This document shows, in pieces, positions 40,666-46,178 of a DNA stretch of 64,000 bases. Within the stretch, counting starts at the first letter, position 1, and every line of letters starts with the position of its first letter. Source of the stretch: Sedimentisphaerales bacterium (GTDB lineage Bacteria > Planctomycetota > Phycisphaerae > Sedimentisphaerales > Anaerobacaceae); contig JANQFY010000355.1 of assembly GCA_028277585.1 (NCBI GenBank), positions 1-64,000 on the forward strand, given 5' to 3'. Position numbers and translations under genes: made by a program. The notes under the pieces were generated by a model. It did no database searches and was not told where the DNA came from. It saw only the letters and a list, made by a program, of their open reading frames with translations.

Positions 40666-41208
40666 ATGGGGTCGGTTGCGATGGTGATGGCCTTGGTGAT
40701 GGAGCACGTGGCGATGGACCGAATGCGCGGCTGGATGGGGTTCGTGACGGCGGTGGTGATGAGCGGCTTGGCGGTTCTGGCCGGTTCCTGTCAGAGTCCT
40801 TATGGTGGGGGCTATGGCGGCTCATCGGGCACAGCGGGACGGACCATGCCGATCATGGGGCGCGGCGCAGCGAGCGTGCCCCAACTGGCGTCGTTTCTGC
40901 TCGACGCCAACCCACAGGCGGATGCCAAGGAAGTCCTGACGCTGGCGGAGGTCTACGTCGAAGAGGGGCGGATCGAGGGCCTCAACGAAAGTGTGAACTT
41001 CTACGATTCACCCATGACCTGGTGGCAGAGAGTACGGACCAACAACCCGCTCGAACGCTTCATCCGAACCCTGCGGTTGCGACTGAGGCCCATGGGAGGC
41101 TTCCACGACGAACCGGCCATCGAGAGCCGTCTCCGGGCAACCCTGGGAAGGGACAGAATCGAACTTACAGACAATGCCCGATACTATCAAACTGAAGTTC
41201 GGTCTTGA
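40666..41208 (+). pseudogene. Chimeric glucosaminidase fragment with transposase tail
   Basis: An open frame of 180 codons whose start is uncertain (a lipobox LAGSC sits near residue 42). Residues ~63-112 (MGRGAASVPQLASFLLDANPQA then EVLTLAEVYVEEGRIEGLNE) are nearly identical in DNA and protein to the glucosaminidase encoded at 42140. After NESVNFYDS the sequence changes to WWQRVRTNNPLERFIRTLRLRLRPMGGFHDEPAIES, which looks like a transposase C-terminus. The catalytic part of the glucosaminidase is lost. It is most likely a duplicated gene truncated by an insertion sequence that has since decayed. Confidence 0.7.
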
Positions 41209-42007: not shown

Positions 42008-42139
42008 TAGCCGACGGGCAGATAACGCGTGACAACGGCGCCGTGATCTGCTTGGATACCATGCAGTCGGGCCAGGTACACTCTGGTGCGGTGTGTGGGC
42101 CGACCTCAGATAGGACGCTGATTCTTGTTGGTGGTGGCC

Positions 42140-42769
42140 ATGGTGGGCATGACGCGAAGGCGTAGTGGGCGTGGGGCGGCGCTCGGATTGTGGTTGAGTG
42201 CGGTGGTGGTCGTGACGGCCTCGTGCCAAGGCCCGGGCGGGGGCGGGCGCGCCGCTGTCTATCCTCCTCCGACCGGCACGGTGCGGATCATGGGGCGCGG
42301 CGCAGCGAGCGTGCCCCAACTGGCGTCGTTTCTGCTCGACGCCAACCCACAGGCGAACGCCAAGGAAGTCCTGATGCTGGCGGAGATCTACGTCGAGGAG
42401 GCGCGGATCGAGGGCGTCAATCACGACGTCGCGTTTTGTCAGATGTGCCATGAAACGGATTACCTGCGCTTCGGGGCCGACGTTCATCCTTCGCAGAACA
42501 ACTTCGCCGGGATCGGTACGACCGGCGGCGGCGTGCCGGGCCATTCGTTTCCCACCGCCCGGATCGGCGTCCGCGCCCAGATCCAGCATCTCAAGGGCTA
42601 CGCCACCACCAAGCGGCTGCGCCGCAAGCTCGTCGACCCCCGCTTTCACAAGGTCCCGCGCGGCAGCGCCCCGTACGTCGAGAACCTCACGGGCAGATGG
42701 GCGACCGACCCGAACTACGACGTTAAGATCAAGGCGATGCTGCAAGCCCTGGCTCAGCAGTCGCGCTGA
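42140..42769 (+). CDS. Glucosaminidase-domain lipoprotein
   Basis: 209 residues from ATG 42140 (an ATG at 42149 is also possible). The lipobox VVTASC marks membrane anchoring. The domain reads IMGRGAASVPQLASFLLDANP, YVEEARIEGVNHDVAFCQMCHETDYLRFGADVHPSQNNFAGIGTTGGG, HSFPTARIGVRAQIQHLKGYA and PYVENLTGRWATDPNYDVKIKAM. This is the peptidoglycan glucosaminidase fold, with the catalytic Glu in CHET. It probably trims peptidoglycan or cell-wall glycan in the periplasm. A truncated, transposase-tailed copy lies 1.4 kb upstream. Confidence 0.85.
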   Translation: MVGMTRRRSGRGAALGLWLSAVVVVTASCQGPGGGGRAAVYPPPTGTVRIMGRGAASVPQLASFLLDANPQANAKEVLMLAEIYVEEARIEGVNHDVAFCQMCHETDYLRFGADVHPSQNNFAGIGTTGGGVPGHSFPTARIGVRAQIQHLKGYATTKRLRRKLVDPRFHKVPRGSAPYVENLTGRWATDPNYDVKIKAMLQALAQQSR

Positions 42770-45166: not shown

Positions 45167-45239
45167 CCCCGCGCGAACTGAGGGAGTATTAGGGACGGGT
45201 CCTGGTTGATGCACTCTTCTTGCGAAAGGTGGTGACGCC

Positions 45240-46178
45240 ATGCGGCTTAGCTCGCTTCTGATGATCGTTGTTCTGCTCGCAATAATGCAGGGTTGCTCTT
45301 CACACAGGGAAGGGCGGAACCAGCCCCGGAACGACGCCGGCACACCCGATCCTCCAGCCGAGAGGTTACTGGTGCAAAGCCTCAAGGAGGAGTTGAGGTC
45401 GAGCCAAGAGATGGAGGCGGAACTGGCGGATCTGGTCGAGGCCATCCGAGGTTCTCAGAACCAGGAGGTCGATCTGCTGGGTCTGCTCGGCGAACGGCTG
45501 GATGGGACGGATGTACTGATTTCGTGCCTGCGCTCCATCGACCAGGCGCTCGACGTGGCGATCGAGAACGTCAGCAACGCTCAAACTTACGGCTACAAGA
45601 GGATCGACGTCATCTTTGACGGAGAAACGATCGGGCACACTCGTCGCATCGTCACGCAAGGCGATCTACGTCGAACGGATGCGCCGCTCGACCTGGCCGT
45701 CCAAGGCCGCGGCTTCCTGCAAATCGAGATGCCCAACGGCGAGATCGCGTATACGCGCCACGGCCACTTCTGCAGAAACGCACAGGGTCGCATTACGACC
45801 AACTCCGGCTATGAACTGCTCGATAGCGTCACCGTGTCCCATGATGGCTCGATGCTGAAGATCTCCGAGGATGGTGCTGTCAGCATCGTCAGGCCCGATG
45901 GCGTCATAGCCGGCCAGGCGAGGATTCGACTGGCCCTCTTCCCCCATGCGGAGGGACTTCGATCGGCGGGCAATACGCTCTTCACAGCGACCGAATCTTC
46001 CGGCGTGCCGATCATCGCGCCTCCGGGCACGCACGGGGCGGGCACGCTTCGACAGGGATTTCTGGAGAGATCCAATGTGAATCTGATGGAAGAACTGCAC
46101 AATCTGCACACGCTGCAGAGGTGGAAGAGAGGCCTGGAAGAAGCGATGCTGGCGATCCACAGGCGCAAGAGCCGATGA
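45240..46178 (+). CDS. Lipoprotein with flagellar-rod (FlgG-like) fold
   Basis: 312 residues. A lipoprotein signal (LLAIMQGCSS) and a ~80-residue charged, helical stretch (SSQEMEAELADLVEAIRGS...) precede a sequence that follows the FlgG/FlgF pattern: SIDQALDVAIENVSNAQTYGYKRIDV, LDLAVQGRGFLQIEMPNGEIAYTRHGHFCRNAQGRITTNSGYEL and GTLRQGFLERSNVNLMEELHNL. Rod and hook proteins are normally exported by the flagellar type III system without a Sec signal. Here a lipobox replaces that, and no other flagellar gene is nearby. The fold call is good; the role (an exapted surface fibre or scaffold?) is unknown. Confidence 0.75.
   Translation: MRLSSLLMIVVLLAIMQGCSSHREGRNQPRNDAGTPDPPAERLLVQSLKEELRSSQEMEAELADLVEAIRGSQNQEVDLLGLLGERLDGTDVLISCLRSIDQALDVAIENVSNAQTYGYKRIDVIFDGETIGHTRRIVTQGDLRRTDAPLDLAVQGRGFLQIEMPNGEIAYTRHGHFCRNAQGRITTNSGYELLDSVTVSHDGSMLKISEDGAVSIVRPDGVIAGQARIRLALFPHAEGLRSAGNTLFTATESSGVPIIAPPGTHGAGTLRQGFLERSNVNLMEELHNLHTLQRWKRGLEEAMLAIHRRKSR

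Follow-up and report, generated by a model that had tools for sequence, protein, structure and literature searches.

A FlgG-type rod fold on a predicted, stalked lipoprotein recurs in Planctomycetota

Axial flagellar proteins are type III substrates without Sec signals. In the window (the whole 64,000-nucleotide stretch of DNA from a Sedimentisphaerales bacterium that was analyzed), a gene at 45240..46178 (+) encodes a 312-residue protein that is FlgG-like by its Pfam and NCBIfam matches and fold, yet begins with a signal peptide and lipobox. What would a protein with the fold of the distal rod do at a membrane, and does it still serve the flagellum?

The order of features along the protein, all encoded on the forward strand, is that of a lipoprotein followed by a rod-type region. 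A strong Shine-Dalgarno sequence (AAAGGTGGTGA, 45225..45235) lies just before the ATG. The first 19 codons (45240..45296) specify a hydrophobic signal stretch and the lipobox cysteine of a bacterial lipoprotein, in the form IVVLLAIMQGC-SSH, with Cys19 (codon 45294-45296) predicted to be lipidated. This lipobox is unusual at -3/-2 but fits a broad PS00013-type pattern that was applied to the window protein and its family alike. A low-confidence linker (residues 20-39, 45297..45356; AlphaFold2 pLDDT) leads to a charged helical stalk (residues 40-86, 45357..45497). The FlgG-like region consists of an N-terminal D0-like helix with the motif NxxNAQTYGYKR (residues 90-139, 45507..45656), a D1 domain delimited by Pfam, AlphaFold2, and Foldseek (residues 140-268, 45657..46043), and a C-terminal D0-like helix (residues 269-312, 46044..46175) in which a family motif, L..L..W+..I/L..A, replaces the QRAYE.NS of FlgG. 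The sequence pattern suggests that the protein is lipidated and located at a membrane.

The resemblance to FlgG is far above chance. The window protein exceeds the cut-offs of PF22692 (E 1e-19), PF06429 (E 4e-6), and TIGR03506 (E 4e-48; 164.9 bits against a cut-off of 70.25), the last being the FlgEFG subfamily model that it shares with FlgF and FlgE. Its best solved relative is Salmonella FlgG (E 3e-32), of which residues 47-75, the L-stretch region, are unmatched in the alignment. The AlphaFold2 model (48 rows; mean pLDDT 85.8) has helices at residues 40-86, 90-112, and 282-311 and a beta D1 with pLDDT > 90, and a Foldseek search of the PDB puts rod-assembled FlgG chains at the top (E 3.7e-22, target TM 0.82). 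A second prediction, for a relative in genome G867, places stalk helices, a D0-like helix, D1, and a C-terminal helix in the same order (mean pLDDT 81.8). The preliminary description had proposed, from the letters of the DNA, a FlgG-like C-terminal part behind a lipobox and a charged helical stalk, to be checked by structure prediction and comparison with FlgG; this architecture is borne out. Against the FlgG equivalog model TIGR02488, the protein scores 159.4 bits, under the cut-off of 252.75, and the lipoprotein relatives tested score 143-173 bits. The reading that holds up is a FlgG-like fold turned into a stalked lipoprotein, separate from the rod protein of the cell.

The cell has its own flagellar genes. 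In the source genome (7.2 Mb in 532 contigs; completeness 80%), contig C15 carries FlgF, FlgG, FlgA, FlgH, FlgI, a single-domain FlgJ, FlgK, and FlgL together, with FlgA, FlgH, FlgI, FlgK, and FlgL assigned by reading translations. FlgE is on contig C8 and a single FlhA is on contig C371; a search of the genome for a second FlhA found none. The FlgG of C15 scores 326.8 bits against TIGR02488. Because this separate, above-cut-off FlgG sits with FlgF, FlgH, and FlgI elsewhere, the window protein is not this cell's rod, and the ground for rejection named in the preliminary description, a flagellar cluster employing it as such, does not apply. Very unlikely, too, is a genuine rod protein that leaves the cell through the flagellar export machinery and serves this flagellum or another system. 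Such a subunit would share the fold and both motifs, TxGYK and ExSNV, but the signal peptide and lipobox, the separate FlgG, the lone FlhA, and the missing L-stretch region and D0 core residues are at odds with it. The FlgJ of this genome (L008:7457-7843, -) is the single-domain form without the muramidase part.

Lipoprotein FlgG copies are recurrent in Planctomycetota, not a one-off. A search for the same architecture, with profiles run over several hundred Planctomycetota genomes followed by locus reading, recovered 21 loci in 19 genomes. The stalk-only profile A2 caught only the two closest members and one divergent member, and the whole-protein profiles A4 and A5 caught the rest. The single scan of genome contigs relied on exact 8-mer patterns and therefore touched phyla other than Planctomycetota very little. 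The loci are distributed among the window's family (G000, G425, G404, G250, and a remnant in G426), family f13 of the same class (G213, G192, G164, G202, G103, and G154), another class (G761), and genus g418 of family f56 (G595, G760, G635, G870, G872, and two loci each in G867 and G871). The lipobox pattern is present in 18 of 19 intact N-termini of the family, whereas none of 81 FlgG-like reading frames has it. Homologues lacking the lipobox had been proposed as grounds against the lipoprotein reading; a single locus answers to this, in G250, where the N-terminus is TM-like and the cysteine is replaced by tryptophan. The other two N-termini are a truncated remnant and one cut by a contig end.

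The closest relative, L011:7911-8822 in a Phycisphaerae MAG (apparently G425), is 49% identical over the full length and has the lipobox VVSGC and the same stalk. Identity is 63% in the stalk, 50% in the N-terminal part of D0, 45% in D1, and 59% in the C-terminal part of D0; the lipoprotein-specific ends are thus better conserved than D1. The relatives already refute an artefact, whether a chance lipobox due to a mistaken start codon or an error in contig assembly. The atypical -3/-2 residues of the window lipobox could have hinted at one, but L011 combines a canonical lipobox with the same stalk, the single-contig assemblies G867 and G103 carry such genes, and four genomes of one genus agree.

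Variants of the architecture occur. Two related FlgG-like proteins, L085:868-1674 (-) in G404 with lipobox IVGC and L152:4854-5660 (+) in G250 with tryptophan for cysteine, form a pair in which an uncleaved helix appears to have taken over from the lipid as anchor. In G426, the sister species of G425, L164:5777-6163 (+) is a truncated remnant with the end of D1 and the C-terminal helix only. Four FlgF/FlgG-like genes of other Planctomycetota have neither the L-stretch region nor a lipobox and were kept apart from the 21 loci: L128:2288-3202 (-) in G700, L129:3664-4401 (-) in G497, L130:2006-2755 (+) in G526, and L151:4664-5620 (-) in G761. In G497 and G761, these genes are on contigs other than that of the FlgG match.

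The residues that were kept and lost bear on whether the protein can polymerize. Across 42 FlgG rows, Q100-Q101 (window numbering), Q293, R294, E297, N299, S300, and D307 are near-invariant. At these D0 positions, which include the AQQ near the N-terminus and the QRxYExNS and D..L near the C-terminus of FlgG, both lipoprotein groups mostly carry other residues, each group its own; in the window's group, all 11 have I100 and 9 of the 11 have W295. Conversely, N110, N113, K120, E276, N279, and V280 are kept in all or nearly all lipoproteins, and E285 in most, such that most of the N..N..TxGYK and ExSNV motifs is retained. The L-stretch between D0 and D1 is a gap in all lipoproteins. In Salmonella FlgG it is a long beta-hairpin that renders the rod straight and rigid (PMC8298488). 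D0 builds the core of the rod and hook, and since its residues are replaced, FlgG-like polymerization of the lipoprotein is unlikely. The surface tube suggested in the preliminary description is not supported, for the same reason.

The D1 domain has a different history from the ends. In two separate lineages the lipoprotein is, by sequence comparison, a mosaic in which the stalk and D0 ends are lipoprotein-like and D1 is like that of the same cell's FlgG. In G595, G760, G635, and G870, D1 shares 77-91% of its residues with a flagellar FlgG from that genome or a sister genome, and the N- and C-terminal parts of D0 are 17-30% identical. In G213, which belongs to another class than these four, D1 is 81% identical to its own FlgG and D0 31-39%. 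Informative columns of the four g418 genomes side with lipoproteins 22:2 in the ends and with FlgG 10:1 in D1 (Fisher p 4e-6), and those of G213 do so 13:4 and 17:3, respectively (Fisher p 2e-4); these p-values are guides, since the counts rest on a consensus for each group and the columns partly depend on one another. Recent duplication alone was rejected for G595, G760, G635, and G870, whose stalk and D0 ends are common to the lipoproteins of G867, G871, and G872, in which D1 is older. D1 dS in G595/G760 pairs is 0.35-0.48, against 0.41 between the FlgG genes of these two genomes, which fits one overwriting of D1 in or near their ancestor. At L153 and L162 in G213, and at L142 and L124 in G595, FlgG D1 evolves faster than D0 across species and matches the lipoprotein of the same cell.

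Elsewhere the correspondence varies. The cell's own FlgG is the best D1 match in G425 (45%), G761 (50%), G192 (59%), and G872 (56%). The window D1 is 35% identical to its own FlgG, which ranks 37 of 42, and own FlgG ranks 27 in G103 and 17 in G250. Trees, which cover the family before the f13 members were added, place the lipoproteins with FlgG rather than FlgF. When every column is used, the lipoproteins split into two groups, one beside FlgG as a whole and the other inside the FlgG of g418, and a single clade is rejected (AU p 0.005). A tree of the D0 ends only, with few columns and long branches, unites them in one group (support 88). One ancient origin with an overwritten D1 and two origins are both possible from these alignments.

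Overwriting could also be neutral. The lipoprotein gene may be a weakly constrained paralogue that undergoes gene conversion with a similar gene of the same cell, for which sequence similarity suffices, and that is being lost, consistent with its patchy distribution, the remnant in G426, and the Cys-to-Trp form in G250. We consider this unlikely. Within genus g418, dN/dS is 0.2-0.45 for the stalk and FlgG part, and the stalk and lipobox are retained among distant relatives. The D1 domains of the G213 lipoprotein and FlgG differ by dN 0.10 at dS 1.10, compared with dN 0.42 at dS 1.26 for the FlgG orthologues of G213 and G192, both dS values being near saturation.

Genomic context gives little guidance toward a flagellar role. 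The window gene is preceded on its strand by GH16 and GH43-like genes; the gaps measure 33 and 73 bp, and its cotranscription with them is possible. The lipoprotein loci of relatives, with neighboring genes named by our own reading, have no conserved neighbors; because neighbors differ from locus to locus, the agarase neighbors in the window look incidental. The gene had been described as standing alone next to agar-degradation genes, which is accurate for the window, but a link to agar degradation is not supported, since no neighbor is shared with relatives. Sigma-28 and sigma-54 sites are not enriched upstream, and a scan for sigma-70 promoters and terminators yielded nothing above shuffles. 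Carriers in the samples fall among genomes with flagellar FlgEFG matches, an association that falls short of significance (class sample, P 0.11; phylum sample, P 0.10). The gene is absent from most flagellate relatives and is thus dispensable. G202, a genome 65% complete, yielded the lipoprotein only.

A rival reading is exaptation away from the flagellum, with the FlgG fold reused in a lipoprotein scaffold, adhesin, or surface protein. We regard this as a real possibility, though short of probable: the genes are outside flagellar clusters with different neighbors each time, the window gene is placed closely behind GH16 and GH43-like genes, and its D1 has drifted from that of its own FlgG. However, the overwriting of D1 by the cell's own FlgG in two lineages would be odd if D1 had no flagellar partners, and the D0 core residues that a tube would need have been lost. 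The likelihood of a flagellar role is no lower.

Our preferred reading, held tentatively and at somewhat less than an even chance, is that of a flagellar accessory: a membrane-anchored, probably nonpolymerizing mimic of the rod, with a D1 that would bind what rod D1 binds. The gene would derive from that of the distal-rod protein FlgG, and its product would be exported by Sec and lipidated. Under the +2 residue sorting rule, which comes from Escherichia coli, the serine at +2 in the window protein suggests that the lipid anchor is most likely in the outer membrane and faces the periplasm. The stalk is modeled as holding out a rod-type D1, and the D0 helices, without the rod-packing residues of FlgG, would probably not polymerize. 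D1 may contact the rod itself or FlgI/FlgH of the LP ring; we infer such partners because D1 has been overwritten and because residues on the outer surface of FlgG (Asp-109, Asp-154, and Glu-203) lie near lysines of FlgI in the LP ring (PMC8298488). The protein could then, for example, guide or brace the rod and the LP ring at the level of the outer membrane. A bolder version, which is possible but doubtful, is a flagellar basal-body component of planctomycetes that has so far gone undescribed: a mimic of the rod, tethered to the outer membrane, that reaches the LP ring or the rod from that side with a D1 kept rod-matched by repeated overwriting. Against a flagellar accessory are the D1 domains of the window, G103, and G250, which are not closest to their own FlgG, the lack of conserved neighborhood and promoter enrichment, the nonsignificant co-occurrence, the many flagellate relatives without the gene, the lone lipoprotein of G202, and the chance that D1 homogenization is neutral gene conversion. 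Function is uncertain because the window copy has no close D1 match to its own FlgG and co-occurrence with flagella is not significant.

Comparison with known systems sets the family apart. It shares with FlgG (TIGR02488; PDB 7cbm, 6jzr) the D1 fold, the N..N..TxGYK and ExSNV motifs, and, in relatives of the window protein, a D1 sequence up to 91% identical, but adds a Sec/lipoprotein signal and stalk, lacks the L-stretch region, has D0 core residues replaced, scores under the equivalog cut-off, and is encoded outside flagellar clusters. FlgH of the L ring would be a lipoprotein at the same junction of rod and outer membrane, if the proposed site is right, but its fold is unrelated and it is encoded separately in the source genome. 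FlgP and similar outer-membrane-associated accessory proteins (basal disk) are envelope-associated in some motors (PMC12222027) and are at most alike in the way they work, whereas FlgP has an SHS2-like fold, forms rings, and has no sequence or fold kinship with lipoprotein FlgG. The literature searched, which took in few subscription journals, contained no paper on a lipoprotein FlgG. The recurrent, putatively lipid-anchored lineage represents a rod fold moved onto another export route, and in some species this copy keeps pace with the rod. Should it prove to be linked to the motor, a phylum with little-studied motors would gain a new basal-body part, and the mutual recognition of a rotating rod and its bushing could be studied in a natural system.

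Upstream in the window, 42125-42769 (+) encodes a probable lipoprotein with a glucosaminidase domain (PF01832), whose best NCBIfam match, TftA, is under cut-off. It was considered as a flagellar muramidase and set aside, as nearness alone speaks for it. A truncated lipoprotein-like copy of its N-terminal half (IMGRGAASVPQLASFLLDANPQA), followed by a transposase-like tail, is at 40666-41208 (+).
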